A stretch of 64,000 nt of DNA from Oscillospiraceae bacterium. Lineage in GTDB: Bacteria; Bacillota; Clostridia; Oscillospirales; Ruminococcaceae. The notes beneath the pieces are model-generated. The model worked only from the letters and a program-made list of their open reading frames with translations. It did no database searches and was not told where the DNA came from. Positions within the stretch are counted from its first letter, which is position 1. Every line of letters begins with the position of its first letter. The translations under genes were made by a program, and so were the position numbers. Below, one piece after another: positions 32,432-52,622 of the stretch. The DNA is taken from the NCBI GenBank assembly GCA_017415165.1, contig JAFQIY010000035.1, forward strand, positions 79,152-143,151. Reading direction: 5' to 3'.

Positions 32432-32463
32432 AATTACGAATTACGCATTACGAATTGCGAATT
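32432..32463 (-). repeat. 32-bp heptad repeat, copy a
   Basis: Four consecutive 7-nt words of the form (A/C)ATT(A/G)CG followed by AATT. Words: AATTACG, AATTACG, CATTACG, AATTGCG. The closing AATT runs into the stop codon of the gene at 32463-33017. Confidence 0.9.
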
Positions 32464-33017
32464 TATAAATACATATGCACCTTTGAACTTTCGCTTTCAA
32501 TTATGTAACGCACATTTTCCGCTTCCTCAGGGGTAAGTCCGCCGATTGTGCCGTTTCCTGAAATTACATTATTCTCTCCCTGATATTCAATGGAATAGAC
32601 CACATCAGCCTTACTTCCCTTTTCTTTCACCTGCACGGAAGTGATGTTTGTCAGATACTCCATTTCAAAACCCCGTCCCGCATCTGTAAGAATACGCATA
32701 TTCGTTACCGCAAAAAACGCCTTTGTTCTGCCTGCCGAAAACGCCTTGACATAAATGACAATGCCGACAACTATAAACAGCACGCCAAAATAGCTCATCA
32801 TACCTCCGCCTGCTCTGAACATACCTACCGTCCAGAACAACGCAAAAGCCGTCCATAATGTTGCAAAGAAAATCATATACAGCTTTGCAGCAAGATTTGC
32901 CTTGACGCCTGCGACAGCAACACCTTTTCCGCACCACACGATATGCTCGCCGATTTCAAGGTGACGATTGAATTTTACCGTAATCTGACGGTCGAAAGTG
33001 CTGTTTTGCTCAGTCAT
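32463..33017 (-). CDS. membrane protein with PH-like domain
   Basis: Protein of 184 residues with two membrane helices (about 45-90) and a C-terminal beta-rich domain beginning AFFAVTNMRILTDAGRGFEME, the pattern of bacterial PH (bPH) domains. Function unknown. It is inserted between argB and argJ and flanked on both sides by copies of the 32-bp heptad repeat in the same orientation. Confidence 0.7.
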   Translation of the reverse strand: MTEQNSTFDRQITVKFNRHLEIGEHIVWCGKGVAVAGVKANLAAKLYMIFFATLWTAFALFWTVGMFRAGGGMMSYFGVLFIVVGIVIYVKAFSAGRTKAFFAVTNMRILTDAGRGFEMEYLTNITSVQVKEKGSKADVVYSIEYQGENNVISGNGTIGGLTPEEAENVRYIIESESSKVHMYL

Positions 33018-33042
33018 TTCTACTCTCTCCCTTGCGTAAAAT

Positions 33043-33074
33043 AATTACTAATTACGCATTGCGAATTACGAATT
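33043..33074 (-). repeat. 32-bp heptad repeat, copy b
   Basis: Words AATTACT, AATTACG, CATTGCG, AATTACG, then AATT. It ends 1 nt before the argJ stop codon (TGA). Same orientation as copy a, with which it brackets the PH-like membrane protein gene. Confidence 0.9.
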
Positions 33075-33075
33075 A

Positions 33076-34299
33076 TCAAGACCTGTAATCCCCGTTAATC
33101 TTAACATAATCATAAGTCAGGTCACAGCCCCACGCTGTAGCCTTTGCGTCACCCGAATTAAGTTCGATGTAAATTTCAATTTCGTCCTCGGTAAGAACAA
33201 CCTTTGCCTCGTCCTCGGAGAATTCTACGCCTGCACCGTTGCGGCAAACTGCAATGCGTCCTGCCTTTGAAGCAAGGTCAACGTCAACCTTTGTAATGTC
33301 GAAATCAGCCTCAGCGTAGCCGATTGCACAGAGAACACGTCCCCAGTTTGCATCAGCGCCGAACATTGCACACTTGAACAGCGGAGAACGGATTACACTC
33401 TTTGCAACGATGATTGCCGTGTCAAGGTCAGGTGCAGAGGAACAAACGCAGGTAAGAAGCTTTGTTGCACCCTCGCCGTCCTTTGCAAGCATTCTTGTAA
33501 GGTTAGCCATAACCTGATAAAGAGCGTCCTTGAATGTAGCAAAATCAGCATTTTCCTCAGTAATTTCCGCATTTTCAGCAAGTCCCGAGGACATCAGCAT
33601 ACAGGTGTCGTTTGTGGACTGGTCGCCGTCAACGGAAAGGCAGTTATATGTAATCTTCACGATTTCGGAAAGTGCCTTCTGCAAAAGTTCAGCAGAAATT
33701 GCACAGTCTGTTGTGATGAAGTTGAGTGTTGTAGCCATATTAGGGTGAATCATACCGCTGCCCTTAGCCATACCGCCCATCTTGCAGAGCTTGCCGCCGA
33801 TTTCAAATTCAACAGCGTATTCCTTCTTCACGGTGTCGGTTGTCATAATAGCAGTTGCAGCCTCAAGATTGCCCTCGTAGGAAAGCTTCTTCACAAGTTC
33901 AGGAACAGCCTCACGGATTGGCTCGATAGGCAAAATCTGACCGATTACACCTGTTGAAGCAACGATAACCTGTTCAGGTGCAATGCCAAGAGCGTCAGCG
34001 GTAAGCTTACACATTTCCAGTGCCTTTTCCTCACCGTCAGCGTTGCAGGTGTTAGCATTCTTTGAGTTTGCAATAACAGCCATAGCCTTGCCGCCGCTTT
34101 TTGCAAGGTTGTTCTTTGTAACAACAACAGGCGCACCCTTAACCTTGTTGGAGGTGTACACACCAGCCGCGTTGCACATAACGTCCGAAACAATCAGACA
34201 GATGTCATTCTTCTTTGTAGGGTTCTCCTTGATGCCGCAGTAAAGACCGCTTGCCTTGAAGCCCTTTGCGGCACACACGCCGCCGTCGATAATTTTCAT
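33076..34299 (-). CDS. argJ: bifunctional ornithine acetyltransferase / N-acetylglutamate synthase
   Basis: Enzyme of 407 residues that recycles the acetyl group from N-acetylornithine to glutamate. The self-cleavage site is in KGSGMIHPNMATTL, where the first Thr after Ala becomes the nucleophile of the beta subunit. The ATG at 34299 follows AGGAGA. No separate argA or argE is visible, consistent with the cyclic pathway. Confidence 0.96.
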   Translation of the reverse strand: MKIIDGGVCAAKGFKASGLYCGIKENPTKKNDICLIVSDVMCNAAGVYTSNKVKGAPVVVTKNNLAKSGGKAMAVIANSKNANTCNADGEEKALEMCKLTADALGIAPEQVIVASTGVIGQILPIEPIREAVPELVKKLSYEGNLEAATAIMTTDTVKKEYAVEFEIGGKLCKMGGMAKGSGMIHPNMATTLNFITTDCAISAELLQKALSEIVKITYNCLSVDGDQSTNDTCMLMSSGLAENAEITEENADFATFKDALYQVMANLTRMLAKDGEGATKLLTCVCSSAPDLDTAIIVAKSVIRSPLFKCAMFGADANWGRVLCAIGYAEADFDITKVDVDLASKAGRIAVCRNGAGVEFSEDEAKVVLTEDEIEIYIELNSGDAKATAWGCDLTYDYVKINGDYRS

Positions 34300-34323
34300 A
34301 TTGCAAAAATCTCCTTTTCTTTG

Positions 34324-34355
34324 AATTCGCAATTCGCAATGCGTAATGCGTAATT
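34324..34355 (+). repeat. 32-bp heptad repeat, copy c (inverted)
   Basis: Opposite orientation to copies a and b. On the minus strand the words read AATTACG, CATTACG, CATTGCG, AATTGCG, then AATT. It overlaps the stop codon of the gene at 34354-34767. Confidence 0.9.
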
Positions 34356-34767
34356 ATTCTTCATACCACATTGCGGAAATATCTTCGCTTTCAAAATATT
34401 TATAGTAATAGGGATTGACTGAGTAGCCTTCAAAAAATGCACAACCGCCGCCAATGTATTCCCTGTCAGCATTATAAACACCAACACTGTTGCACCCGTC
34501 AAGAGCAATCGCATAACGTTTTCCGTCAATGTCAAAGCCAACTTCATAATCACGAGGACACTTGCCGCTTATTGCTGTATCATACTTCATACGCAGAATA
34601 TAGACAACCTGTTCAGCATCCTCATCAGAAAGCCTGATACTCTCATCACCGCAAACGGCATAAACCTCAGCGTTTGGTCTTATGAAAAAACCTACTCTTA
34701 TTCCGACAGCAAGCGAAACGGCAAAAATCAAAATCCAGAAAAAAGTGATTATGGCGAATTTTTTCAT
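34354..34767 (-). CDS. small membrane-anchored protein, paralogue 1 of a tandem pair
   Basis: Protein of 137 residues: an N-terminal hydrophobic segment (KKFAIITFFWILIFAVSLAV) that is a membrane anchor or signal, then a small domain with EVYAVCGDESIRLSDEDAE and GKRYAIALDGC, ending DISAMWYEE. The ATG at 34767 has GGGAGAAG upstream; the longer frame reads through the repeat and is not credible. The neighbour at 34817-35245 is clearly homologous along its whole length. I do not recognise the family. Confidence 0.75.
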   Translation of the reverse strand: MKKFAIITFFWILIFAVSLAVGIRVGFFIRPNAEVYAVCGDESIRLSDEDAEQVVYILRMKYDTAISGKCPRDYEVGFDIDGKRYAIALDGCNSVGVYNADREYIGGGCAFFEGYSVNPYYYKYFESEDISAMWYEE

Positions 34768-34786
34768 TTTGACTTCTCCCTTTGAT

Positions 34787-34818
34787 AATTCGCAATTCGC
34801 AATGCGTAATGCGTAATT
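34787..34818 (+). repeat. 32-bp heptad repeat, copy d (inverted)
   Basis: Identical in sequence to copy c. It lies between the two tandem paralogues and overlaps the stop codon of the second, so the duplication unit was probably gene plus repeat. Confidence 0.9.
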
Positions 34819-35245
34819 ATTCTTCATACCACATTGCAGAAATATCCTCGTTATCAAAATATTTAAAGTAATAAGGATCGATTGAACCCTCATCTAAATA
34901 AAGGTAACCGTCACCAATGTGTTCCCCGCCGGCATTGTAAACCTGAACGGTGCTGCAGCCGTCAAGAGCAATTGCATAACGTTTTCCTTCAATATCAAAG
35001 CCTATTCTGTCATCATATGGGCACTTGAAGCCGCCACGAGCGTCGTATTTGTGACAAAGCAGATAAACAACCTTTTCCGCATCCTCATCCGAAAGCTTAA
35101 CACGCTCATCGCCGCAAACTGCATAGACCTCTGCTTTTTCTCCTATAACAAAGCTTTCAATGAAAAAACCTGCTCTGTTGAAATCAGCAAAAAATGCGGC
35201 GGCAATGATTAAAAACCAAAGTAAAGTAATTACTGGTGTTTTCAT
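34817..35245 (-). CDS. small membrane-anchored protein, paralogue 2 of a tandem pair
   Basis: Protein of 142 residues with an N-terminal hydrophobic segment (TPVITLLWFLIIAAAFF), then EVYAVCGDERVKLSDEDAEK and GKRYAIALDGC, ending DISAMWYEE. It shares ribosome binding site, spacing and most of its domain with paralogue 1; the loops differ. The conserved cysteines in VCGDE and LDGC may form a disulfide outside the cell. Function unknown. Confidence 0.75.
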   Translation of the reverse strand: MKTPVITLLWFLIIAAAFFADFNRAGFFIESFVIGEKAEVYAVCGDERVKLSDEDAEKVVYLLCHKYDARGGFKCPYDDRIGFDIEGKRYAIALDGCSTVQVYNAGGEHIGDGYLYLDEGSIDPYYFKYFDNEDISAMWYEE

Positions 35246-35264
35246 TTTGACTTCTCCCTTTGAT

Positions 35265-35296
35265 AATTCGCAATTCGCAATGCGTAATGCGTAATT
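35265..35296 (+). repeat. 32-bp heptad repeat, copy e (inverted)
   Basis: Identical to copies c and d. It overlaps the stop codon of the four-helix bundle gene. Confidence 0.9.
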
Positions 35297-35663
35297 ATTT
35301 ATTTGACAATTCAATTGCTTTTTGAGATTTTGTTATTGACATCAGTATTTTTAATAATTCCTTGCAATCAGAATATATGCTGTCAAAATGAACATTTTCA
35401 ATATACCCACTCTCTCCGAGTAGTTCAAGCCAATATTCGGTTTCACTCGCTTCCTTCAATGCAATATTCATTTTTGCATAAAAATCAGCTTTGCTTTGAC
35501 CTCTTATCGCCTCTTTTACATTTGCACCGATACTCGTGCCGCTTCGTAATACCTGCTTTGAAAGAACATATTCTTTCTTTTCTGAAATAAGATACTTATA
35601 CAGCTTTATAATTCTTAACGCAAAAGCCTTACTCTTGTCAACAATTACATTTTGCTCTTTCAT
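35295..35663 (-). CDS. four helix bundle protein (23S rRNA intervening-sequence family)
   Basis: Protein of 122 residues, all alpha helical, with the family pattern SKAFALRIIKLYKYL, LRSGTSIGANVKEAIRGQSK and EASETEYWLELL. Members were first found inside 23S rRNA intervening sequences and share their fold with the Avd accessory protein of diversity-generating retroelements. No reverse transcriptase or rRNA is nearby. It lies between argC and the tandem paralogues, bracketed by repeats e and f. Confidence 0.9.
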   Translation of the reverse strand: MKEQNVIVDKSKAFALRIIKLYKYLISEKKEYVLSKQVLRSGTSIGANVKEAIRGQSKADFYAKMNIALKEASETEYWLELLGESGYIENVHFDSIYSDCKELLKILMSITKSQKAIELSNK

Positions 35664-35682
35664 AATGTTTTCTCACCCATTT

Positions 35683-35714
35683 AATTGCGAATTGCGCATT
35701 GCGCATTACGAATT
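35683..35714 (-). repeat. 32-bp heptad repeat, copy f
   Basis: Words AATTGCG, AATTGCG, CATTGCG, CATTACG, then AATT, overlapping the argC stop codon. Confidence 0.9.
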
Positions 35715-36660
35715 AAACCAGCCCTGTTGTTTCGTCAATCCCCATCATAATATTCATACACTGTACAGCCGCACCGCTTGCACCCTTACCGAGGTTGTCA
35801 AGACGTGAGCAAAGCAGGACGTGGTCGTCGTTGCCGAAAACGAAAATCTGCATAAGGTTTGTATTCTTCAAAGTATTAGCCGCAAGGAAACCGTCCTCTA
35901 AAACGCCCTCGCCCATAAACGGCATTACCTTTACGAAATTCTGTCCCTCGTAGTGCTGTGCCATAACCTCCCATACGTGCTGTGCGGAGGTTTTCTTTGC
36001 CATTGCACGGAGGTGAAGCGGAATGGAAACAACCATACCGTTGTAATAGTTGTCAACAATAGGATTGAAAATCGGCGGATAGGAAAGTCCCGAAATCGCC
36101 ATCATTTCCTTGATGTGCTTATGTGTTTTGCCCATAGAATACTGTCTTGGTGAGTTGTACTCGTCAGGCTTGTTGTCGCCCTCATAAACAGCGATAGCCT
36201 TCTTGCCTGCGCCGCTGTAGCCTGAAACTGCGTGGCAGATAATCGGGTGATAAGGTGCAATAAGCCCCTCCTGCACGATTGGATAAAGTGCCGCATTGAA
36301 GCCGCTTGCATAGCAACCAGGTACAGCCACTCTGTTGGAGTTTGCAATCTTGTTTCTGTGAGCCTTTGAAAGCTCAGGCAGACCGTATGCCCACGCAGGA
36401 TTTGTTCTGTGAGCTGTGGAAGCGTCGATAATTCTTGTATTCTTGTTTTCTACCAGTGAAACGGACTCAATAGCCGCCGCATCAGGCAGACAGAGGAAAG
36501 TGAAATCCGACTCATTTATAAGACGCTTTCTTTCCAGTGCACTCTTTCTTAAATCCTCGTCAATTTTAAGAATTTCAACATCTGTTCTGTCCTTGAATCG
36601 CTCAATAATTTTAAGTCCCGTAGTGCCTTCCTGACCGTCTATAAAAATCTTGTATGCCAT
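35713..36660 (-). CDS. argC: N-acetyl-gamma-glutamyl-phosphate reductase (type 2)
   Basis: Enzyme of 315 residues that reduces N-acetylglutamyl phosphate with NADPH. The cofactor loop is FIDGQEGTTGLKI and the catalytic cysteine lies in VAVPGCYASGF. It is the short, type 2 form (about 310 residues rather than 345). It is the first gene of the argC-J-B-D-F series and has a palindromic operator candidate upstream. Confidence 0.96.
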   Translation of the reverse strand: MAYKIFIDGQEGTTGLKIIERFKDRTDVEILKIDEDLRKSALERKRLINESDFTFLCLPDAAAIESVSLVENKNTRIIDASTAHRTNPAWAYGLPELSKAHRNKIANSNRVAVPGCYASGFNAALYPIVQEGLIAPYHPIICHAVSGYSGAGKKAIAVYEGDNKPDEYNSPRQYSMGKTHKHIKEMMAISGLSYPPIFNPIVDNYYNGMVVSIPLHLRAMAKKTSAQHVWEVMAQHYEGQNFVKVMPFMGEGVLEDGFLAANTLKNTNLMQIFVFGNDDHVLLCSRLDNLGKGASGAAVQCMNIMMGIDETTGLV

Positions 36661-36786
36661 TTCAATTCTTTCCTTTCGTTATTGTCGTCTATATAAAATG
36701 TAGTTTTATTATATAGTCCGCTTGTTAAATTTTATTGTATATTCTGTATATTGTTTATTAATTTATGCAATTATTCACCGATATTC

Positions 36787-36808
36787 TGCATATTCTGAAT
36801 TTTATGCA
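36787..36808. promoter_or_regulatory. candidate ArgR operator upstream of argC
   Basis: A 22-bp palindrome TGCATA-N10-TATGCA between argH and argC; it overlaps the argH stop codon. It matches the palindrome upstream of argG at 19 of 22 positions. TGAAT/ATTCA-like half sites nearby (36765-36785) resemble arginine boxes. The regulator itself is not in the window. Confidence 0.55.
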
Positions 36809-38178
36809 ATTGTACGGCGAATATATTCAATCTGAGTCTTTACAGACTCAGGTGCAGGACCGCCTGGTACTTTTCTCATATTCACGCAGGTTTCAAGGCT
36901 GATTGCCTCGTAAACGTCCTCCTCGAAGGTGTCGCAGAGTGCCTTGTATTCAGCGAGAGGAAGCTCCTCAAGAGTTGTACCCTTTTCGATACAGGTTGCA
37001 ACAAGTGTACCTGTAATCTTGTATGCGTCACGGAAAGGAAGTCCCTTCTTAACAAGGTAGTCAGCGCAGTCTGTAGCGTTGATGAAGCCCTTTGCCGCAG
37101 CCGCACGCATATTTTCACGGTTTACACGCATTGTCGCAAGCATAGGAATGAATGTTGTGATACAAAGCTTTACTGTGTCAATTGCGTCGAAAATTGCCTC
37201 CTTGTCCTCCTGCATATCCTTATTATACGCAAGAGAGAGCCCTTTCATCATAACAAGAAGTGTATTTAAATCTCCGTACACACGTCCTGTCTTGCCGCGG
37301 ATAAGTTCAGTAATATCAGGATTTTTCTTCTGCGGCATAATTGACGAGCCTGTTGAATAAGCGTCATCAAGCTCAATGAACTTGAATTCCCACGAGCACC
37401 ACATAACGATTTCCTCGGAGAAGCGGGAAAGGTGCATCATAAGGATAGAAAGTGCCGAGCAAAGCTCAATGCAGAAATCTCTGTCGGAAACGCCGTCAAG
37501 GCTGTTCTGTGTGATATCGTCAAAGCCGAGAAGTGCGGAAACCTGACGTCTGTCAATCGGATAGGTTGTAGAAGCAAGTGCACCGCTTCCGAGCGGCATA
37601 TAATTCATTCTCTTGTATGTGTCGGAAATTCTGCCCAAATCACGGACAAGCATATTTGCGTACGCCATAAGGTGGTGTGCAAAAGTGATTGGCTGTGCTC
37701 TCTGCAAGTGTGTGTAGCCGGGCATTACAGTGTTGAGATTATCCTCAGCAAGTGTGCAGATTGTTTCGATAAGCTCTCTTACCATCGGCACGATTTCCAT
37801 AATCTCGTCCTTGAGGTACATTCTGATATCAAGCGCAACCTGGTCGTTGCGGCTTCTTGCAGTGTGAAGTCTCTTGCCTGTGCCGCCGAGTCTTTCGGTG
37901 AGGACCTGCTCAACAAACATATGGATATCCTCAGCGTTAGGGTCAAACATAAGCTTGCCGCTGTCAATATCGTTGAGAATACCTGTAAGACCCTCAACAA
38001 TCTTCTCACTTTCGCTCTTGTCAATGATACCTGTATCGCCAAGCATTGTAGCGTGTGCAATCGAGCCGCGGATATCCTGCTTATACATTCTTGCGTCAAA
38101 GGAAATTGAAGAGTTGAAGTCATTTACACGCTTGTCAAGCTCCTTGGAAAAGCGTCCAGCCCACATTTTATCTGCCAT
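36802..38178 (-). CDS. argH: argininosuccinate lyase
   Basis: Enzyme of 458 residues of the fumarase/aspartase superfamily, releasing fumarate and arginine. The superfamily signature GSSIMPQKKNPD lies near residue 275; the active-site region GYTHLQRAQPITFAHH is also intact. It follows two lipoprotein genes that separate it from argG. Confidence 0.97.
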   Translation of the reverse strand: MADKMWAGRFSKELDKRVNDFNSSISFDARMYKQDIRGSIAHATMLGDTGIIDKSESEKIVEGLTGILNDIDSGKLMFDPNAEDIHMFVEQVLTERLGGTGKRLHTARSRNDQVALDIRMYLKDEIMEIVPMVRELIETICTLAEDNLNTVMPGYTHLQRAQPITFAHHLMAYANMLVRDLGRISDTYKRMNYMPLGSGALASTTYPIDRRQVSALLGFDDITQNSLDGVSDRDFCIELCSALSILMMHLSRFSEEIVMWCSWEFKFIELDDAYSTGSSIMPQKKNPDITELIRGKTGRVYGDLNTLLVMMKGLSLAYNKDMQEDKEAIFDAIDTVKLCITTFIPMLATMRVNRENMRAAAAKGFINATDCADYLVKKGLPFRDAYKITGTLVATCIEKGTTLEELPLAEYKALCDTFEEDVYEAISLETCVNMRKVPGGPAPESVKTQIEYIRRTIA

Positions 38179-38190
38179 AATAATTCTCCT

Positions 38191-39384: not shown

Positions 39385-39391
39385 TTCCTGT

Positions 39392-40879: not shown

Positions 40880-40911
40880 CCTTTCCTTACCCGAAAAACG
40901 AACAAAGGGGC

Positions 40912-40958: not shown

Positions 40959-40976
40959 GAATATTATTCAAGAAAC

Positions 40977-43216: not shown

Positions 43217-43249
43217 AGTTTTGTTTTCACCTTCAAAGTCACAGATTTA

Positions 43250-43957: not shown

Positions 43958-44010
43958 TGCAAGCTATCACCTCAATTGTTGCAAACTTTATCTTTACCGC
44001 TATACATAGG

Positions 44011-44236
44011 CAGTGACTTCGTCACTGTTAGGAAATTTCTCTCTTGCAGAAATTTCCTCTTTTGAGGCGCCGCCTCAAAATTCACCTTTTAGATGCGCTT
44101 AAAGCACGCTCTGCGAAAACCAAACGTAAGCGTTTGGTTGCGAAGAAAGGATTTCGCTCTCCTGCTCAAAACAAACAAGTTTGTTTGCGACCAAAGGGCT
44201 TTGCCCTTTGGAAACCCACCACCTTTGAAAAGGTGG
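44011..44236 (+). repeat. hairpin-array element, half copy
   Basis: The 351-bp gap 43958-44308 is filled by seven near-perfect hairpins: 44011-44027 (7 bp), 44030-44058 (11 bp, loop CTCTTGC), 44060-44080 (9 bp, arm TTTTGAGGC), 44120-44137 (7 bp), 44172-44187 (7 bp), 44191-44211 (9 bp, arm CCAAAGGGC) and 44219-44236 (8 bp). Order, loops and linkers match one half of the element at 63543-64000, but several stems differ completely while remaining complementary. Confidence 0.75.
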
Positions 44237-44278
44237 ACGAAACTTTTCATCTGCCAACTTTATGAGTTTACTCAAACT

Positions 44279-44310
44279 AATTACGAATTACGCATTGCGC
44301 ATTACGAATT
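44279..44310 (-). repeat. 32-bp heptad repeat, copy g
   Basis: Words AATTACG, AATTACG, CATTGCG, CATTACG, then AATT, overlapping the stop codon of the purine nucleoside phosphorylase gene. Confidence 0.9.
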
Positions 44311-45139
44311 AAACTTCTTTCCCAAGTCTGATAACTGACTCTGTAACCAGCTTCTTGAAAAGCGGTGCAACTCTGTCAGCTGTTTCCTGCACCTCAGCGT
44401 GTGTAAGCGGATTTTCGGTAATTCCGCAAGCCATATTGGAAATGCAGGAAATTCCCACAACCCTCATACCTGCGTGGTTTGCGGCAATTGCTTCACAAGC
44501 TGTTGACATACCTACAGCGTCAGCACCGAGAGTTCTTACCATTCTGATTTCGGCAGGTGACTCATAGTTAGGACCTGTCAGCTGAATGTAAACGCCCTCC
44601 TGCAATGGGATATCCAAATCCTTTGCAGCGTCCCTCACAATCGCTCTCAGGTCACGGTTGTAGATGTTGCTCATATCAGGGAAACGCACGCCCAATTCGT
44701 CAGCATTCGCACCAATCAGCGGTGAAGGAGCCATACAAATCTGGTCGGAAATAAGCATAAAATCTCCTGCGTGGTAATCGAAATTCACGCCGCCTGCCGC
44801 ATTTGTCAGGAACAGGATTTTCGCACCCATCATCTTCATAAGACGAACAGGGAGAACGACATCCTCCATCGGATAGCCCTCATAGTAGTGGACTCTGCCC
44901 TGCATAATAACAACCTTGACGTCGCCCACATAGCCGAACACAAAGCGACCCTTGTGACCTGCAACGGTAGACTTAGGGAAGCCCTCAATCTCGCCGTAAT
45001 CGAGAGTTGCTTCAATCTTTATTCCGTCGGCATAGTCACCCAGACCTGAACCGAGAATAAGCGCCACATCAGGCACAAAATCAATCTTCTCCCTGAAACA
45101 CTTATAGCATTTTTCCAAACGTTCATAAATTCTGCTCAT
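44309..45139 (-). CDS. punA: purine nucleoside phosphorylase (inosine/guanosine type)
   Basis: Enzyme of 276 residues that splits inosine or guanosine with phosphate. Family signatures are LILGSGLGDYAD, the phosphate/sugar site MQGRVHYYEGYPM and the base-binding region GVYIQLTGPNYESPAEIRM. ATG 45139 lies 8 nt after GGGGAG. The gene is bracketed by two heptad repeats in the same orientation and has no nucleoside transporter or deoxyribose genes beside it. Confidence 0.93.
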   Translation of the reverse strand: MSRIYERLEKCYKCFREKIDFVPDVALILGSGLGDYADGIKIEATLDYGEIEGFPKSTVAGHKGRFVFGYVGDVKVVIMQGRVHYYEGYPMEDVVLPVRLMKMMGAKILFLTNAAGGVNFDYHAGDFMLISDQICMAPSPLIGANADELGVRFPDMSNIYNRDLRAIVRDAAKDLDIPLQEGVYIQLTGPNYESPAEIRMVRTLGADAVGMSTACEAIAANHAGMRVVGISCISNMACGITENPLTHAEVQETADRVAPLFKKLVTESVIRLGKEV

Positions 45140-45176
45140 TTTCATTGCTCCCCTCAAATTTAATGTACAATTATAT

Positions 45177-45208
45177 AATTACGAATTACGCATTGCGAAT
45201 TGCGAATT
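45177..45208 (-). repeat. 32-bp heptad repeat, copy h
   Basis: Words AATTACG, AATTACG, CATTGCG, AATTGCG, then AATT, overlapping the pullulanase stop codon. Confidence 0.9.
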
Positions 45209-47171
45209 AGTCTGTAGCCAGTCCCTCATAAACCGCAGGTTCAGGCTGTGGATATTTTCTTGCAAGAACAATCGTATCCAGTCCCTCAACCACATAGTCG
45301 TCCTCAACATAGCGGATAGGTTCAGTTCCTGCCTTGCCGTCACCGACATACACACCGTACTTGCCGAAAGCGTGAAGCGTAACAGGATAATCATTCGGAT
45401 TGAAGAAAACAACAATCTCCTCAAACTCGTTGTCCCCACGGAGAATAAAGCCTGTCACACGCTGAGGAAGCTTGTCGAGGAACTGCATATTCTTGCCCAC
45501 TTCCATACCGTCGTACATTCTGAAAGCCTTGTGCGCCTTTCTGAATGCAATCAAACCCTTGTAATAGTCAACAACGTCCTTGTATTCGGACTTTCTGTCC
45601 CATTTCAGGCTGTTGATAGCGTCAGGGGAATTGTAGCTGTTATGGTCAAAGGACGTGCCGCCGGGGAAAGGCTTTGAACGGAGAAATTCCTGTCCCGCCT
45701 GAATGAACGGTATACCCTGTGCAAGGAACACCATAGCCGCCGCCATTTTGTCCATTTTAATTCTTGTTTCAATGCTCTGAGTACCGTTTGTGTAGTAAAG
45801 CTTGTCCCAGAGAGTGAGGTTGTCGTGTGCTTCAACGTAATTTACAGCCTGTACGGGGTGGTCTGCCCACGCAAACTTTGTAAGGTTAGGAATCTGCGGA
45901 TGAGGAATTCTTCCGCACATTACTTCCTTGACATATTCCTCGTTGCCGCTTGCACCGTTTACATAGCCCCTGTCACGGTTTTCAAAGTTGTTGCCCTTAA
46001 CTGTGTCACGGAAATCATCGCTGAAAAATCCGTAGTCAGGAGTATGTCTCGCATTAAGCTTCATAGCACGCTTTTCCCAGCTTACAGGGGAGTCGCCGCC
46101 TGTCCAGCCCTCGCCGTAAAGAATTACGTTAGGGTTGATTTCCTTGAGACGTGCGGAAATCTCGTTCAGCGTCTCGATATCGTAAAGTCCCATAAGGTCA
46201 AAGCGGAAGCCGTCAATTTTGTATTCCTTTGCCCAGTAGCAGATGCTGTCCACGATGAACTTTCTCGCCATTTTTCTTTCGGTGGCAAACTCGTTTCCGC
46301 AGCCGCTTCCGTTGCTGAAATACTCGCCGTTTTCGCCCCAGAGTCTGTAGTAATACTTCGGATAAGTCTTGTTGAAGCAGGAGTCGGCAGTAGCAAATGT
46401 GTGGTTGTAAACAACGTCCATTATCACGCCGATGCCCTGTCTGTGAAGTGCGTAAACAAGCCTTTTCAGCTCAGCAACTCTTGTTCTTCCGTCAAACGGA
46501 TTTGTAGAGTAAGAGCCTTCAGGGGAATTGAAATTTCTCGGGTCATATCCCCAGTTGAACTGCGGCTTGTGGAGATTTGTTTCGTCAATTCTTTCATAGT
46601 CGAAAATCGGCATAAGCTGAACGTGTGTCACGCCCATTTCCTTGATGTGGTCAATACCGATTTTGTCACCTGCCGCATTTATAACACCGTTTTCGATAAA
46701 CGCAAGGAAACGTCCCTTGTAGCAGAAATTACCGCTCTTGTCAATGGAAAAATCACGAACGTGAAGCTCATAAACACAAGCGTCAGTAGGGTGTTCAAGC
46801 TTTACATAGCCCTGATTGTCCCAACCCGCAGGATTACAGCTTTCAAGGTCAAGCACCATACCCATAGCGCCGTTTACGCCTGCGCTTCGGGAATATATGT
46901 CAACGGTTTCCTGTTCGATACCGTCATAATCCATCAAGTAAGTATAATAAACCCCGTCAAGGTCACCGTGCGCAACCTTTGTCCATACGCCGTTTTTGCC
47001 CTTAGTCATAGGCATATTGCGGTAAGGCTTCTCGTCACGGCAGTCGTGATAAAGATGCACCGTAACCTTGTCCGCCTCAGGCGCCCAGACACGGAATTCC
47101 GTCTGATTTTTACTGTACAGCGCACCAAGCTCACCGTCAAAAGCGTATTTTTCATCTATCTTGCTAAACAA
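45207..47171 (-). CDS. pulA: type I pullulanase (GH13)
   Basis: Debranching enzyme of 654 residues hydrolysing alpha-1,6 bonds. An N-terminal CBM48-like domain (EFRVWAPEADKVTVHLYHDC) precedes the GH13 barrel with the pullulanase motif FNWGYDP, catalytic regions DVVYNHTF, GFRFDLMGL (nucleophile Asp), LYGEGWTGG (acid/base Glu) and YVEAHDN. No signal peptide, so intracellular glycogen or imported maltodextrins are the likely substrates. The start is TTG 47171, seven bases after AAGGGG. Confidence 0.94.
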   Translation of the reverse strand: MFSKIDEKYAFDGELGALYSKNQTEFRVWAPEADKVTVHLYHDCRDEKPYRNMPMTKGKNGVWTKVAHGDLDGVYYTYLMDYDGIEQETVDIYSRSAGVNGAMGMVLDLESCNPAGWDNQGYVKLEHPTDACVYELHVRDFSIDKSGNFCYKGRFLAFIENGVINAAGDKIGIDHIKEMGVTHVQLMPIFDYERIDETNLHKPQFNWGYDPRNFNSPEGSYSTNPFDGRTRVAELKRLVYALHRQGIGVIMDVVYNHTFATADSCFNKTYPKYYYRLWGENGEYFSNGSGCGNEFATERKMARKFIVDSICYWAKEYKIDGFRFDLMGLYDIETLNEISARLKEINPNVILYGEGWTGGDSPVSWEKRAMKLNARHTPDYGFFSDDFRDTVKGNNFENRDRGYVNGASGNEEYVKEVMCGRIPHPQIPNLTKFAWADHPVQAVNYVEAHDNLTLWDKLYYTNGTQSIETRIKMDKMAAAMVFLAQGIPFIQAGQEFLRSKPFPGGTSFDHNSYNSPDAINSLKWDRKSEYKDVVDYYKGLIAFRKAHKAFRMYDGMEVGKNMQFLDKLPQRVTGFILRGDNEFEEIVVFFNPNDYPVTLHAFGKYGVYVGDGKAGTEPIRYVEDDYVVEGLDTIVLARKYPQPEPAVYEGLATD

Positions 47172-47207
47172 ACTAACAGCCCCTTAAAAAGTCATATACA
47201 TATGTTA

Positions 47208-47236
47208 ATTATACACTAAAACGTTTTCAGTGTAAA
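47208..47236 (-). promoter_or_regulatory. pulA promoter with LacI-type operator in the spacer
   Basis: TTTACA at 47236-47231, 17-nt spacer, TATAAT at 47213-47208 on the minus strand. The spacer contains the palindrome AAAACGTTTT (47218-47227), the CG-centred form bound by LacI/CcpA-family regulators. Repression by such a protein, relieved by maltodextrin, is a plausible model. Confidence 0.65.
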
Positions 47237-47301
47237 TGATGTAAATTTACAAATATGTTAATGTTTTTTTGTAATCATAATAAATTGTAATTTATGAGTT
47301 T

Positions 47302-47383
47302 GGAGTTAGGAGAGTGGAGTGTGGAGTTAAAGATAACCATAGTTTACACAACAACTCCACTCTCCTAACTCCACACTCCACTC
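47302..47383. repeat. inverted pair of GGAG heptad arrays
   Basis: Left array 47302-47329 is four 7-nt words GGAGTTA, GGAGAGT, GGAGTGT, GGAGTTA. Right array 47353-47383 carries the same kinds of word on the other strand. A perfect 19-bp pairing joins 47302-47320 to 47354-47372. It is separate from the (A/C)ATT(A/G)CG heptads but has the same 7-nt period. Confidence 0.8.
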
Positions 47384-47405
47384 TGAATTTATCCCTATAC
47401 ACCAA

Positions 47406-47435
47406 AATCACCCTTGACAATGTCAAAGGTGATTT
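47406..47435 (-). terminator. intrinsic terminator after metG (possibly bidirectional)
   Basis: A stem of about 13 bp (AATCACC with GGTGATT outside, TTGACA with TGTCAA inside). T-rich tracts follow on both strands (minus TTTTGG; plus TTTCTTTTTT). Confidence 0.75.
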
Positions 47436-47443
47436 CTTTTTTC

Positions 47444-49384
47444 TTAGCTTAATTTTGAACCGTTAGGTATATCCTTGTCAACAAAGATAACCTTTGCGTC
47501 CTCGCCGACAGAAGCCGCAACAATCATACCGTTGGACTCAACTCCGCAGAGCTTTGCAGGAGAGAGATTTGCCACAACGATAACCTTCTTGCCGATAAGG
47601 TCAGCAGGCTCGTACCACTTTGCGATACCCGAAACGACCTGACGCAAACCGAAGCCGTCGTCAAGCTGGAGCTTCAGAAGCTTCTTTGCCTTAGGAATTT
47701 TCTCGCACTCCTTGACCTCTGCAACTCTCATATCAACCTTGCAGAAATCGTCAATTCCGATAGTCTCGGAAATCGGCACAAGGTTAGCCTTGTCAGCGTC
47801 CTCGTCCTTAGGTGCAGCAGCCATTATCAGAGCGTTAAGCTCGTCAATTTCCTTGTCAACGTCGATACGCGGGAAGATAACGTCGCCCTTCTTTACTGTT
47901 ACGTCAGCAGGAAGTACGCCGTACTCAGCAGCCTTTTCGTAGGTAACGTGCTCAGCGCCTGCACCAATCTGCTCCCATATCTTAGGCATATCTGTAGGCA
48001 TAAATGCGGAAAGAAGTGTTGTTGTAACACGGATTGCTTCAAGCAGGTTGTAAAGAACAGCAGCAAGTCTCGGCTTGTTTGCTTCGTCCTTTGCAAGCAC
48101 CCAAGGAGTTGTTTCGTCGATGTACTTGTTAGCGGCGGAAACTACCTTGAAGATTTCAGCGAGAGCAACGTTGAGCTGTGTGTTTTCAACAGCTTCGTCA
48201 ACGGCAGGGCGGAGTGCCTTTACAGCTTCAATGAGAGCGTCATCAAATTCGCCTGCCTGCTTTTCGGCAGGAAGAGTGCCGTCAAAGTATTTGATAACCA
48301 TTGCAACTGTTCTTGAAACAAGGTTGCCAAGACCGTTTGCAAGGTCGGAATTGATACGGTTAATCATAATTTCATTAGAGAAGGAGCTGTCTGCACCGAT
48401 AGCCATTTCACGGAGAATGTGGTAACGGATTGCATCTGCGCCGTAACGCTGACCCAGTACAAACGGGTCAACAACGTTACCCATAGACTTTGACATCTTC
48501 TGTCCGTTGAAAGTAATCCAGCCGTGAACAGCAAGGTGTTCAGGGAGAGGAAGCTCAAGAGCCATAAGCATTGCAGGCCATATAATAGCGTGGAAACGCA
48601 TAATGTCCTTAGCAACCATATGCACGTCAGCAGGCCAGAACTTGCTGTAGTCATCGTGTGCGCTGTTCTCATAGCCGAGAGCAGTGATGTAGTTGGAAAG
48701 CGCGTCAATCCAAACGTATACAACGTGCTTATCGTCAAAGGAAACAGGCACGCCCCACTTGAAGGTTGTACGGGAAACGCAGAGGTCCTCAAGACCCGGC
48801 TTGATGAAGTTGTTTACAAGCTCGGTTGCACGTGTCTTAGGTCTGAGGTAGTCTGTTTCAGTGAGAAGCTTTTCAATTCTCTCAGCGAATGGGGACATCT
48901 TGAAGAAGTAAGCTTCTTCCTTAGCTTCAACGACTTCACGTCCGCAGTCGGGGCACTTGCCGTCAACAAGCTGTGAGTCTGTCCAGAAGCTTTCGCAAGG
49001 TGTGCAGTATTTGCCTGTATATTCGCCCTTGTAGATGTAGCCCTTGTCATAGAGTGCCTTGAAGATTTTCTGCACGGCTTCAACGTGGTAGTCGTCAGTT
49101 GTACGGATATATCTGTCGTAGCTGATATTCATATAAGACCAGAGATTTTTGAAGATTTCAACAATCTCGTCAACGTACTGCTTTGGTGTAACGCCCTTTT
49201 CAGCAGCCTTCTGCTCAATCTTCTGACCGTGCTCGTCAGTACCTGTGAGGAACATTACATCATAGCCCTGCATTCGCTTGTAGCGAGCGATAGAGTCACA
49301 TGCAACGGTTGTGTAGCAGTGACCGATGTGCGGATTGCCCGATGGATAATAAATCGGGGTTGTGATGTAGAATTTCTTTGACAT
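47444..49384 (-). CDS. metG: methionyl-tRNA synthetase
   Basis: Enzyme of 646 residues. HIGH is at 19-22 and KMSKS at 296-300. Zinc-knuckle cysteines are C127, C130, C144 and C147. A C-terminal tRNA-binding (Trbp111-like) domain covers about 540-646 (DDFCKVDMRVAEVKECEKIP). It has its own consensus promoter and no T-box leader. Confidence 0.97.
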   Translation of the reverse strand: MSKKFYITTPIYYPSGNPHIGHCYTTVACDSIARYKRMQGYDVMFLTGTDEHGQKIEQKAAEKGVTPKQYVDEIVEIFKNLWSYMNISYDRYIRTTDDYHVEAVQKIFKALYDKGYIYKGEYTGKYCTPCESFWTDSQLVDGKCPDCGREVVEAKEEAYFFKMSPFAERIEKLLTETDYLRPKTRATELVNNFIKPGLEDLCVSRTTFKWGVPVSFDDKHVVYVWIDALSNYITALGYENSAHDDYSKFWPADVHMVAKDIMRFHAIIWPAMLMALELPLPEHLAVHGWITFNGQKMSKSMGNVVDPFVLGQRYGADAIRYHILREMAIGADSSFSNEIMINRINSDLANGLGNLVSRTVAMVIKYFDGTLPAEKQAGEFDDALIEAVKALRPAVDEAVENTQLNVALAEIFKVVSAANKYIDETTPWVLAKDEANKPRLAAVLYNLLEAIRVTTTLLSAFMPTDMPKIWEQIGAGAEHVTYEKAAEYGVLPADVTVKKGDVIFPRIDVDKEIDELNALIMAAAPKDEDADKANLVPISETIGIDDFCKVDMRVAEVKECEKIPKAKKLLKLQLDDGFGLRQVVSGIAKWYEPADLIGKKVIVVANLSPAKLCGVESNGMIVAASVGEDAKVIFVDKDIPNGSKLS

Positions 49385-49427
49385 TTTATATTCCTCCTAA
49401 AAGGTTATTTTACATAAATACTATATT

Positions 49428-49456
49428 ATTATACCCCAACAATTGCCGTTTGTCAA
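49428..49456 (-). promoter_or_regulatory. sigma-A promoter of metG
   Basis: Minus strand TTGACA at 49456-49451, 17-nt spacer, TATAAT at 49433-49428; both boxes match consensus. The transcript leader would be about 35 nt. Confidence 0.88.
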
Positions 49457-49476
49457 TTTACGGAGTAAAAAAGGGC

Positions 49477-49610
49477 AAAAAAATAGCAGGACAAACGGTG
49501 TCCTGCAAATCAAATAAAATGAAATAAGTAAAATATGTGTAGAACAAAAGAAAGGAGACAACAAAACGGATGTTAAACTTAATTAAAGAAATTAGATGAT
49601 TTCTAACATC
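49477..49610 (-). ncRNA. candidate small RNA with anti-Shine-Dalgarno stretch
   Basis: A promoter (TTGACG 49645-49640, 17-nt spacer, TATAAT 49622-49617) is followed about 130 nt later by an intrinsic terminator (arms GCAGGACA 49486-49493 and 49499-49506, then TATTTTTTT). No start codon with a ribosome binding site lies between on this strand. The 5' end folds GATGTTA against TAACATC (49569-49575 with 49604-49610). The following unpaired stretch includes UCUCCUUUCU, complementary to Shine-Dalgarno sequences. On the plus strand that stretch could instead be a ribosome binding site before a 9-codon frame, which I consider less likely. Confidence 0.5.
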
Positions 49611-49616
49611 GATATT

Positions 49617-49645
49617 ATTATAACCTATTTTGCCAGTAACGTCAA
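49617..49645 (-). promoter_or_regulatory. sigma-A promoter of the candidate small RNA
   Basis: TTGACG, 17-nt spacer, TATAAT on the minus strand. It drives no recognisable protein gene before the terminator at 49486-49506. Confidence 0.75.
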
Positions 49646-49699
49646 CAGGTTTTGGTAAGATTTTTGCTTTTTGTATACTTGCACAAAAAAGCCGTTTGC

Positions 49700-49820
49700 C
49701 AATTGTCATTTTTGCGTTTTTACAATTAAAAAACCAAAATGGAAATATAAATTACAACGAATTTGAGGTGAACAAAACGCAGTAATTTTCCGTTCACCAC
49801 ACTTATTCAAAAACAAGTCA
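49700..49820 (-). ncRNA. possible second small RNA
   Basis: Promoter TTGACA (49855-49850), 17-nt spacer, TATTAT (49832-49827). Downstream a 7-bp hairpin GGTGAAC/GTTCACC (49767-49773 with 49792-49798) and the sequence CGTTTTGTTCACCTC, recalling CGTTTTGTTGTCTCC in the first candidate. The 3' end is unclear: only weak hairpins precede T-runs near 49730 and 49690. The remainder of the 692-bp gap 49385-50076 holds the metG promoter and terminator hairpins of the next gene. Confidence 0.3.
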
Positions 49821-49956
49821 TCTTTTATAATAACATATTAATTAGCATTTGTCAAGGGTTTTCTTCAAATACAAAAAATAAATTTTCGGCTGAATTTTAC
49901 AGAATGTATTTTTCGACAGGCTAATGAAAAAAGAATAATTAAGGAATTGCCTTAGA

Positions 49957-49987
49957 CAAAAATATAAAAATGTCCGCAAAGCGGACA
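49957..49987 (-). terminator. intrinsic terminator after the SprA-like gene
   Basis: Arms TGTCCGC (49971-49977) and GCGGACA (49981-49987), followed on the minus strand by TTTTTATATTTTTG. Two further hairpins, including an 11-bp stem TTGTCGAAAAA near 50009-50033, lie between it and the stop codon. Confidence 0.85.
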
Positions 49988-50076
49988 CCTTAACTATTCA
50001 CTATTCGTTGTCGAAAAGGCTTTTTCGACAAAATACAGCACCACACTTCCGTATGGTGCTTTTGGTGCTGTAAAAA

Positions 50077-50625
50077 TTATACTGCCATATCAAACATTCC
50101 GCCCTTACCCTGTGTAGGGTCGTTCATTCCGACGTTGAAGCGGCTGTCGGCTGCTCCTCTTGTGACAGTACGGGTCAAGCCGCCTGAAATGTAAACTCTG
50201 CCGCATTCGGGACAGATAGCCGTGCTGAGTGTAACGCTCTGAGAAACAATTTCCTTGCCCTCACGTTCAGCCTTTGCCTGATTTCTGCCGACGTGCTCCA
50301 TTTCGTGACTTTTTACCTTTGCCGCAGCAGCCTTAGGGTCGATTTTTGTAGGGGTCTGGAAAGAAACACCCATATCGTCCGAGCCGTCCTGATAACGTCT
50401 GTTTTCGCAGGTCTTGCACTCGAAGGAGTCAAAACGGCGCTTCTTGTCGTTATCCTCGGAAATTTTACTATGAGCGTGCTCAGGACTGCCGCTGTATTTA
50501 CCATACTTTTCGTCAGCCTTTTCAGCCTTGTTCTTTCCGTAAGCGGATGCAGCATAGTTGAAGGATTTACCTGCAAAGCCTGTGTTTGCACCTGAAATTC
50601 CGACACCGATTGAACCTATTGTCAT
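50077..50625 (-). CDS. SprA-like protein with HExxH and CxxC motifs
   Basis: Protein of 182 residues resembling the SprA-related family: RRYQDGSDDMGVSFQTPTKI followed by HEMEH (residues 107-111), which has the HExxH form of zinc metallopeptidases. CxxC pairs occur at C70/C73 and C138/C141. The N-terminus is glycine-rich, without a signal peptide. Whether it is an active peptidase is unknown. The gene stands alone with its own promoter and terminator. Confidence 0.7.
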   Translation of the reverse strand: MTIGSIGVGISGANTGFAGKSFNYAASAYGKNKAEKADEKYGKYSGSPEHAHSKISEDNDKKRRFDSFECKTCENRRYQDGSDDMGVSFQTPTKIDPKAAAAKVKSHEMEHVGRNQAKAEREGKEIVSQSVTLSTAICPECGRVYISGGLTRTVTRGAADSRFNVGMNDPTQGKGGMFDMAV

Positions 50626-50670
50626 AATAAAACCTCCTCTCGGAACACTTCCTCACAATACTGTAATTAT

Positions 50671-50700
50671 ATTATAAAACAAACAACCGCTGTATGTCAA
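50671..50700 (-). promoter_or_regulatory. promoter of the SprA-like gene
   Basis: TTGACA (50700-50695), 18-nt spacer, TATAAT (50676-50671). The -35 box touches the terminator stem of the operon upstream (50686-50727). Confidence 0.65.
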
Positions 50701-50727
50701 TGTGCTAATTGCAACAAATACAGCGGT
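50686..50727 (-). terminator. terminator of the condensation-ligase operon
   Basis: A 10-bp stem ACCGCTGTAT/ATACAGCGGT (50686-50695 with 50718-50727), followed on the minus strand by TGTTTGTTTT. Confidence 0.7.
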
Positions 50728-50741
50728 CAATTTGAACATTT

Positions 50742-52283
50742 TTATTTAATTTCGCCCTGATAAGTCTGTGTACGCTTGATTTTCTTCGAAGTTGTCTTGT
50801 CGAACTCCCTGTCACGGACACGGAGTCTGCGGATTGTCTTGGAGGACGGCAGAGTCGTGTTGACTTCCTTGATGATTTCGTTCAGCTTTGCAGCAGCCTC
50901 GTCAATGTCGGGGCACATATCAAGGTTAGGGAAAATTTCAGCTGTAATGTAGCCTTCCTCTGCGTAAACGAGAATTTCAGCCGCAAGGTCAATAAGAGCG
51001 AACTTGTTTTCAAGCTCCTCAGGAGAAACGTTCTCGCCGTTGCTGAGAATGATAAGGTTTTTCTTTCTGCCTGTGATGTAACGACGTCCGTCCTCGGCGT
51101 AGCCCAGGTCGCCTGTGTGGAGCCAGCCGTCAGCGTCAAGCGCCTCAGCTGTAGCCTCAGGGAACTTGTAGTAGCCCTGCATTACAGACGGGCTTTTAAC
51201 AACGATTTCGCCGTCAACAATCTTTACCTCACAGCCGTTTACGATTGTACCAACATCACCCAACAGGCTTACGTTGTTGAAGTCAGCAGTTGCAATTCTC
51301 GGTGAGCACTCAGTCATACCGTAGCCCTGTGCCATAGGAATACCGAACTCACCGTAAGCCTTGATAATCTCAGGAGCAAGATAAGCACCGCCGCTGTAGA
51401 TACCCTTTAATCTGCCGCCGAAAAAAGCCTGTGCAACAGCCTTTGCAGGGAGACCCTTTGCCTTTGCGGCAGCGTTAATCTGCTTGAGGATAGTTTCCGC
51501 AATCATCGGAACAAGAAGAATGATTGTCGGCTGGAAAAGCTTGAGGTTCTGAGCAATTCTCATCATAGCGTCGTTTACGCAGATAGTTGCGCCGTAACGG
51601 AGAGAAAGGAGAATATCACAAGCGAAGCAGAAAACGTGGTGGATAGGAAGCACGCTGAGAAGTGTGTCCTCAGGGGAGCTTTCGTTATCCTGACACATAG
51701 CGTTGTCGATGAGGTTGCCGTGTGTAAGCATTACACCCTTAGCCTTGCCTGTTGTACCTGATGTGTACACGATTGAAGCAAGTGACTCGGACGGAATATC
51801 ATAAATCTGTGCCTCGTCATATTTTTCAAGAATTTCTGTCAGCACGTTTTCAGCGCCCTCGTGCGCCTGAAGTGCAACATAAGTCTTGATTGCAGGACAG
51901 TTGATTTTTATTGCAGGAAGCATAGGAGCGTAACGTGCATCATAGAAGAACACGTTCACGTCTGCTCTGTTCATAAGGTCGCAGATGTCATCGCAGGCAA
52001 GCTGTGCATCGAGAGGAACAGTAACGTTTCCACCCATAATTGTGCCGAAGTAGCCCACAAGATAAGCGTAGCTTGTAGGTCCGATTGTTGCCGCGTGAAC
52101 CTTCTCGCCCTTCATTGCTTCAAGCAGGAAGGAAGCAACCTTCTTTGTATCGGAAAAGAACTGCTTGAAGGACTTTTCAACAATTTCCTTGCCAGCCTTT
52201 TCCTTGATATATGCCTTGTCGCCGTATTCCTCAGCGGCAAGTCTTACCAAATCCTGTAAGCTTTTTACTTTTGTTTTATCCAT
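50742..52283 (-). CDS. AMP-forming acyl-CoA/acyl-carrier-protein ligase
   Basis: Adenylating enzyme of 513 residues. The phosphate loop TSGTTGKAKG is at 174-183; TGDLGYAEDG and the hinge with ITGRKKNLIILSNGENVSPEE follow near 390-415, and a catalytic-lysine motif TTSKKIKR lies at the C-terminus. It activates a carboxylic acid as acyl-AMP; with a carrier protein encoded next door (9 nt away), loading of that carrier is the likely role. Substrate (fatty, aromatic or amino acid) cannot be read from the sequence. Confidence 0.88.
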   Translation of the reverse strand: MDKTKVKSLQDLVRLAAEEYGDKAYIKEKAGKEIVEKSFKQFFSDTKKVASFLLEAMKGEKVHAATIGPTSYAYLVGYFGTIMGGNVTVPLDAQLACDDICDLMNRADVNVFFYDARYAPMLPAIKINCPAIKTYVALQAHEGAENVLTEILEKYDEAQIYDIPSESLASIVYTSGTTGKAKGVMLTHGNLIDNAMCQDNESSPEDTLLSVLPIHHVFCFACDILLSLRYGATICVNDAMMRIAQNLKLFQPTIILLVPMIAETILKQINAAAKAKGLPAKAVAQAFFGGRLKGIYSGGAYLAPEIIKAYGEFGIPMAQGYGMTECSPRIATADFNNVSLLGDVGTIVNGCEVKIVDGEIVVKSPSVMQGYYKFPEATAEALDADGWLHTGDLGYAEDGRRYITGRKKNLIILSNGENVSPEELENKFALIDLAAEILVYAEEGYITAEIFPNLDMCPDIDEAAAKLNEIIKEVNTTLPSSKTIRRLRVRDREFDKTTSKKIKRTQTYQGEIK

Positions 52284-52292
52284 AATTCCACC

Positions 52293-52520
52293 TTACGCTT
52301 TCAGTGACTCGATGTACTTGACAGCATCGCCTACAGTGCTGAGCTTGATAACCTCCTGCTCATCAACCTGAACGTCGAGAGTTTCCTCAATTTCGCCCAG
52401 CATACTCATAAAGTCGTAGGAATTGAAGCCTAAATCCTCGATAAATCTTGCATCCTCAGTAATAGCGCTTTCGTCAACCTCAACATAGTTGCAGATAAGC
52501 TCTTTAAGCTGTTCAAACAT
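52293..52520 (-). CDS. acyl/peptidyl carrier protein
   Basis: Carrier protein of 75 residues with four-helix pattern and phosphopantetheine site S34 in EDLGFNSYDFMSM (the usual motif is D/N-S-L; here N-S-Y). It is separate from the fatty-acid synthase genes and lies between the ligase and the condensation protein, so it is probably dedicated to this pathway. Confidence 0.92.
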   Translation of the reverse strand: MFEQLKELICNYVEVDESAITEDARFIEDLGFNSYDFMSMLGEIEETLDVQVDEQEVIKLSTVGDAVKYIESLKA

Positions 52521-52590
52521 AATAATTTCTCCTTTATAAATTATAGTTTAGATTACAAGCAAACCACGGTTTTTCGCTTGCGTGCGTTTT

Positions 52591-52622
52591 AATTACGCAT
52601 TGCGCATTGCGAATTACGAATT
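52591..52622 (-). repeat. 32-bp heptad repeat, copy i
   Basis: Words AATTACG, CATTGCG, CATTGCG, AATTACG, then AATT. It ends 3 nt before the stop codon of the condensation-domain gene. Confidence 0.9.

Follow-up and report, generated by a model that had tools for sequence, protein, structure and literature searches.

The DNA analysed here (the window) is the whole 64,000-nt stretch from contig JAFQIY010000035.1 of assembly GCA_017415165.1, and all window coordinates are relative to it. It carries nine short arrays of heptanucleotide words, two of which, 35264(-) and 35683(+), form in inverted orientation the two termini of a 452-bp unit (35264-35715) placed between argC and argJ, an operon junction. 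The unit holds one gene, at 35295-35663(-), whose product belongs to the S23 (23S rRNA intervening sequence protein) family, PF05635. The initial annotation had listed all nine arrays but left unnoticed that two of them enclose a gene. The complete unit is made up as follows:

35264..35296, minus strand: right arm (3' of the S23 gene), 33 nt, RCG words (R is A or G); overlaps the S23 gene stop codon, 35295-35297, by 2 nt
35295..35663, minus strand: gene for an S23 / four-helix-bundle protein of 122 aa; PF05635 (23S_rRNA_IVP), E 4e-29; TIGR02436, E 5e-32
35683..35715, plus strand: left arm; its outer end overlaps the argC stop codon

Relatives of the encoded protein in the PDB are 2rld (E 1e-38) and 2gsc (E 0.03), each with five chains, which alone is no proof of a pentamer.

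All nine arrays were found again at the positions first given for them. They had been described as consisting solely of (A/C)ATT(A/G)CG words, which is correct for eight; the array at 33043 opens with AATTACT. With the next base included, the array unit reads MATTR(CGMATTR)x4 (M is A or C), that is, 33 nt or five MATT words with a 7-nt period. A search for four exact in-phase words gave 49 pattern matches in the window's own genome, about 12 of which are overlapping registers of a single long array on contig C36; the same pattern read backwards gave none there. A tolerant scan of the window and 16 other stretches of this genome (about 0.38 Mb, picked for holding arrays) found 47 arrays, of 25 nt (1), 26 nt (2), 31 nt (1), 32 nt (6), 33 nt (35), 47 nt (1) and 219 nt (1). 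Length, claimed at first to be fixed, is nearly so in this genome, where 42 of 47 arrays measure 31-33 nt, and near-constant length is observed in this genus; it does not extend to cyanobacterial flank arrays, which can be far longer. Those 42 arrays comprise 36 distinct sequences. Most arrays in the genome have five MATT words, and one (L011 10131-10349) has about 31. Rfam had no match in window positions 31000-54000, a PHROGs search had none, and a literature search with the letters of the array found no paper containing them.

The association of arrays with S23 genes was measured in loci sampled without regard to repeats: 14 PF05635 genes in the genus, and a phylum sample of 149 genomes, 29 of which have the family. 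Forty of the 43 loci were used, three being dropped for length, and L257, L280 and L287 were kept though their genes lie off-centre. Each p-value of the lag-7 test is the maximum across positions and lags and is used as a score, with a threshold of 1e-4. A 7-nt-periodic stretch lies on at least one side of the gene in 32 of the 40 loci and on both sides in 24. A second set, of named loci on plasmids and phages, was retrieved by similarity to the window protein and so leans to its closer relatives (17 of 39 matches were fetched); it gave 15/17 and 11/17, respectively. The two misses are phage loci, and the 17 include Bacillota, Cyanobacteriota, Spirochaetota, Bacteroidota and Chloroflexota. As a control, one 50-kb stretch of E. 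coli K-12 showed lag 7 in 1 of 383 segments at 1e-4 and in none at 1e-5. Any lag passed 1e-4 in 33 of the 383 E. coli segments and in 52 of 240 control segments from the sampled loci themselves.

Array lengths were scored in 108 flanks, with six of 60 loci left out (the three dropped for length plus L257, L280 and L287). A lag-7 score of at least 13 is reached by 67 of these flanks and by none of the 383 E. coli segments (maximum 7.6). The 67 arrays measure 30-34 nt in 28 cases, less in 4, 35-44 nt in 12 and at least 53 nt in 23; many of the 30-34-nt arrays come from this genus, whose loci are not independent of one another. Within the genus PF05635 occurs in 9 of 21 genomes, 8 of which hold RCG, ACG or CCG arrays, and the ninth, G008, has ATT-type arms. 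When loci were selected by their arrays, four of 143 contained an S23 open reading frame (ORF), each between inverted arrays: L067 (Dolichospermum), L102 (Sphaerospermopsis), L139 and L174. Most arrays evidently have no S23 gene beside them. Among viral contigs, five stretches matched a pattern for relatives of the S23 protein and none was confirmed.

The units occupy varied places. Rfam was run on six loci picked because their flanks resembled structured RNA: L272, L276, L279, L283 and L287 lie in 23S rRNA genes, with heptad arms seen in the flanks of 23S rRNA insertion loci, and L278 lies in an RNase P RNA gene. The L278 unit (1229-2003, genome G068) follows Rfam model position 136, at a stem tip, and its arms extend that stem. 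We know of no earlier case of an S23 unit interrupting an RNase P RNA gene, no literature search having been aimed at this point. A locus from another genome, L280 (G142), resembles the L278 insertion by eye. On plasmids, S23 genes lie between hsdS and hsdR, cas2 and cas1, cas6 and cas4, or helicase and methylase genes (L312, L319-L326), all defence-type operons; the unit of L320 runs against its cas neighbours, whereas the others in this set run along theirs. Both annotated neighbours share the direction of the S23 gene in 11 of 15 plasmid loci. Plasmids of Nostoc, Dolichospermum, Planktothrix and Pseudanabaena carry S23 genes flanked by heptad arms, and on a Nostoc plasmid a unit bounded near the outer ends of its arms lies inside a methyltransferase gene.

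Read outward, 77 arm arrays share a core of A/C, A, T/C and T (MAYT), followed by three freer letters. The core carries 3.31 bits of information, against a maximum of 2.57 in 20 shuffled sets. The inverted orientation beats the direct one in 29 of 35 loci, and arms are more alike within a locus (0.70) than between loci (0.47), a difference reached in 0 of 2000 shuffles.

The idea that complementarity is maintained between paired arms was rejected. Comparing the A/C first letters of words 2-5 across 27 arm pairs gives disagreement in 81 of 108 cases, whereas shuffling of partners inside each genome gives 59.8 (value reached in 0 of 10000 shuffles); three pairs of this sample, from L029, are near-duplicates. 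When the out-of-register pair at L012 6749 is left out, 79 of 104 disagree against 58.4, and 1 of 10000 shuffles reaches that value. In 26 arm pairs, 82 of 132 mismatches fall at the A/C letter and none in ATT, although in the pair and orthologue comparisons the phase of each arm was set by its ATT words, which favours agreement at ATT. Of 54 paired arms, 14 contain AAG words, and of 48 solo arrays none does; the excess comes mainly from G015 (12 of 32 paired, 0 of 13 solo); G000 has none in 16 paired arms or 27 solo arrays. The excess disagreement at the A/C letter lies outside what a simple account predicts. It could reflect avoidance of long perfect hairpins or, on another reading, a mismatch pattern recognised every 7 nt.

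The remaining features of the window comprise further arrays and two ORFs:

34786..34818, minus strand: array with words identical to those at 35264 and 34324, in direct repeat around two small ORFs
34324..34355, minus strand: array with orthologues in G003, G005 and G010 that have other fifth letters
34354..34893, minus strand: ORF with no Pfam match between arrays 34324 and 34786, like the next ORF by eye; not at this place in G005
34817..35314, minus strand: second such ORF, between arrays 34786 and 35264
32432..32463, plus strand: solo array at the stop of ORF 32463-33017; the G005 array there has CCG/CCT words
33043..33075, plus strand: solo array whose first word is AATTACT, abutting the argJ TGA (33076-33078)
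44279..44311, plus strand: solo array overlapping the purine-nucleoside phosphorylase stop
45177..45209, plus strand: solo array overlapping the type I pullulanase stop; the G005 array there has CCG words
52591..52623, plus strand: solo array 2 nt before the end of a condensation-domain gene (52626-54044)

Where G005 has a single array, the window has three identical ones in direct orientation (34324, 34786 and 35264), separated by two similar ORFs. A GCTTGCG...TTTT stretch precedes the array at 52591 and was also seen ahead of other copies.

Comparison with relatives bears on how arrays without a gene arise. Both anchors of L249 were located in 7 of the 16 loci from relatives. The junction is short and empty in G019; G005 has a whole unit, as G000 does, with different words; G010 and G003 retain arm remnants with the gene largely gone; and G007, G014 and G017 have other sequence. 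Such remnants of internal deletion indicate that gene-less pairs can arise in this way, and solo arrays and gene-less pairs are best read as derivatives of S23 units. A small ORF between two inverted arrays at L008 9852-10189 in G000, which may resemble DUF3781, is absent from this place in G005 and G004.

Words change between close relatives in a patterned manner. The comparison covers six chosen sites alignable without gaps, and excludes L008 9853/10157, L012 19501 and the L013 sites, which have a shorter array or words of another family. Against G005 (four sites) the fifth letter is changed in 15 of 16 words. For the rest of the word the changes number 2 of 60 letters within ATT, 2 of 20 first letters, and 0 and 2 of 16 at the last two letters, y and z. 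The fifth letter differs in 14 of 16 words against G003 (four sites; first letter 6 of 20) and in 5 of 8 against G010 (two sites). The DNA flanking orthologous arrays is 76-97% identical. By genome, the fifth letter is A or G in the window's own, nearly always A in G010 and G015, mostly C in G003 and G005, and A or C in G004; the words of G001 are ATT/GTT, and at some other orthologous sites the whole word family is swapped. This near-complete replacement of the fifth letter between close relatives likewise lies outside what a simple account predicts.

The initial annotation had placed the arrays on gene stop codons. We tabulated the 42 arrays of 31-33 nt from the window's own genome with a simple ORF caller, and 38 have a predicted stop facing the array within 400 bp; four lie inside a predicted ORF. 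The placement is borne out: the outer end faces the stop in 25 of the 38, and 24 of these 25 lie within -10 to +3 nt. The inner end faces the stop in the other 13, five at -2 and eight at 12-370 nt. The overlap arises partly because array ends themselves supply the AA of TAA. The object recognised is probably not the stop codon, since outer ends also occur, by eye, just ahead of ribosome-binding sites, and since S23 units with such arms are found in 23S and RNase P RNA.

The link between the arrays and S23 genes is strong, and we think it likely that the arrays are the terminal inverted repeats of small mobile units whose core is an S23 gene, or reduced derivatives of these in the form of arm pairs and solo arms. 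In the mechanism we propose, an S23 ring of five protomers would bind an arm in single-stranded form, RNA or DNA, with each protomer holding one of the five words, and this would fix the number and spacing of the words. The match between five words and five protomers suggests one word per protomer of a pentameric ring, much as TRAP reads its repeats on RNA. Where a unit interrupts an RNA, its arms would pair and RNase III would cut the unit out. Spread of the unit would rely on enzymes from elsewhere, because its only gene has no known catalytic activity.

Several observations weigh against this reading. The coupling of word identity to protein identity is weak (Spearman 0.12) and clear only in the 29 pairs above 55% identity. 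The 23 flank arrays of at least 53 nt run contrary to a strict five-word rule, and the step is 11 nt in L275 and L277 (genomes G035 and G115) and 8 nt in L265 and L282. PF05635 loci without a 7-nt array are L268, L288-L290 (these three below the Pfam cut-off) and both phage loci; part of the scoring behind these exceptions used a looser score than the main lag-7 test. Background periodicity is not zero: control segments of the 40 loci show lag 7 in 17 of 240 cases, and window segments in 23 of 490, as expected if derivatives lie nearby. G001 (78% complete) has dozens of matches to ATT/GTT-type arrays as well as inverted pairs, with no PF05635 match, and the S23 ORFs in array-selected loci number just the four named above, from a profile of window-protein relatives that misses distant members. 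The interrupted Nostoc methyltransferase gene, the one gene examined in this respect, lacks 309-328 bp present in three relatives, and by eye neither it nor L249 has a clear target-site duplication.

Four other explanations can be set against these data. Slippage of the polymerase at a preferred 7-nt step, unconnected with any protein and with S23 genes lying in repeat-rich places by coincidence, has been put forward in print for heptamers (in the excerpts of PMC4679880 and PMC4692102), and would suit the long arrays of cyanobacteria and the single 219-nt array here. We consider it very improbable, given that the arms about this gene family are inverted in 29 of 35 loci, that length is near-constant in the genus and that lag 7 is almost absent from the E. 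coli stretch. The preference for a dedicated process over plain slippage, first drawn from length and word variation, is upheld: arrays are tied to one gene family with mostly inverted arms, and step, core and genus-level length are kept while words differ. Ordinary miniature transposons, whose transposase, encoded elsewhere, would recognise the arms and carry the S23 gene as a passenger, are unlikely, no search having been aimed at transposases beside arrays: target duplication was not seen at the few sites examined, 36 of 42 arrays in the window's own genome are distinct, and the S23 gene recurs between arms of quite different words. Close inverted pairs do resemble miniature inverted-repeat transposable elements (MITEs), and one multicopy MITE with outer repeat AAATTATAATTT carries CCA-type arms.

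Two further explanations assign the arrays a role in the host or in RNA processing. Host regulatory sites at gene ends, kept by selection, would account for the outer ends that abut stop codons and for the replacement of the fifth letter in almost every word against a stable core, an effect to be expected from a co-evolving reader. This seems improbable, because heptad-armed S23 units occur in 23S and RNase P RNA as well and because presence is patchy: 15 of 21 genus genomes have no exact RCG array, and at least 4 of these 15 hold arrays of other words. Somewhat unlikely, too, is that the arms are an RNA stem for RNase III only, with words that the S23 protein does not read. Units in 23S and RNase P RNA do sit where arms extend a stem, and RNase III excises the intervening sequence (IVS) of Coxiella (excerpt of PMC4990558), but the common core persists, and disagreement at the A/C letter, 81 of 108 against 59.8, is the opposite of selection for pairing.

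Two other repeat families of this genome stand apart. The CCA-type multicopy pairs were considered as S23-driven copies and rejected for the five copies examined, which share the outer repeat and look like a separate MITE: about 100 bp, near-identical, with a CCA-type inverted heptad pair inside and about 10 copies by BLAST. A second heptad family, of CATTATT words, forms inverted pairs around GC-rich hairpins, with starts 91-98 bp apart. The copies and pairs are:

L007 485-582, L008 2728-2825, L009 16028 and 17305, L014 8762: MITE copies examined
L007 8711/8805 and 17694/17785, L011 2307/2398, L014 17036/17127, L015 16226/16324: CATTATT-word inverted pairs

Beyond the likely mobile S23 unit, a wider proposal is possible though doubtful: heptanucleotide arrays across bacteria might be one system, the ends of S23 units read single-stranded by a pentameric ring, with a lineage-specific three-letter code after the MAYT core that is rewritten genome-wide when the specificity of the ring shifts. 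If true, this would be a nuclease-free, ring-based mobile element and a reason why 7 is a favoured repeat length. The link may help to explain the abundance of seven-letter repeats in bacterial genomes, and two old puzzles meet in it: the function and origin of S23 intervening sequences, and the bacterial excess of heptamers. If the arrays are S23-unit ends, both puzzles could be tested with one purified protein and one 33-nt oligonucleotide, and annotators would have a rule by which heptamer arrays may point to S23 units, whether existing or lost.

According to the excerpt of PMC4990558, what S23 intervening sequences do and where they come from was still unclear over 25 years after they were discovered; the excerpt also describes the S23 protein of Xanthomonas (X. 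campestris) as a homopentameric toroid and tandem GACAGAT heptamers ahead of the S23 protein start in the Coxiella IVS. Heptamer arrays near gene ends are reported from Xanthomonas, Nostoc and Beggiatoaceae, with slippage, quadruplexes or regulators discussed; the words, intergenic, are GGGGAYT in Nostoc, GGGAATC in Xanthomonas and TAACTGA in Beggiatoaceae (excerpts of PMC4692102 and PMC4679880). A CRISPR survey spells out 23S rRNA IVP among its proteins in a figure legend (PMC10910872), which would fit passenger units in cas operons. Judged by title or the start of the abstract, no paper among the matches listed ties heptamer arrays to S23 generally; subscription papers and preprints lay outside the scope of this search.

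Of the known systems, the 23S rRNA IVS with its S23 protein shares the protein family and the inverted ends, and five of the loci here are 23S insertions. The window unit is a relative outside rRNA and not an IVS in the strict sense, because it lies between argC and argJ and not inside 23S rRNA. Gene-less and solo arrays, moreover, reach tens of copies per genome, and the excerpt of PMC4990558 describes no general 7-nt arm. The printed heptamer repeats differ in that the excerpts of PMC4692102 and PMC4679880 name no S23 gene; the S23 link described here covers neither Xanthomonas nor Beggiatoaceae.

The cyanobacterial short tandemly repeated repetitive (STRR) sequences had been named as the nearest analogue. 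The 7-nt step supports the comparison, but cyanobacterial heptamer arrays are more than an analogue: on plasmids of Nostoc and Dolichospermum, genes of the S23 family are themselves flanked by 7-nt arrays. By definition, STRR sequences are, like the window arrays, tandem, heptanucleotide and intergenic, and differ in a variable copy number, where 42 of 47 arrays here measure 31-33 nt. REPIN/RAYT elements likewise combine short inverted pairs, dispersed through a genome, with a less common form that bears a gene; S23, however, is no known transposase, and the words of the arrays vary from copy to copy. Avd of diversity-generating retroelements, a pentameric four-helix bundle that handles nucleic acid, may be a relative of the S23 protein.

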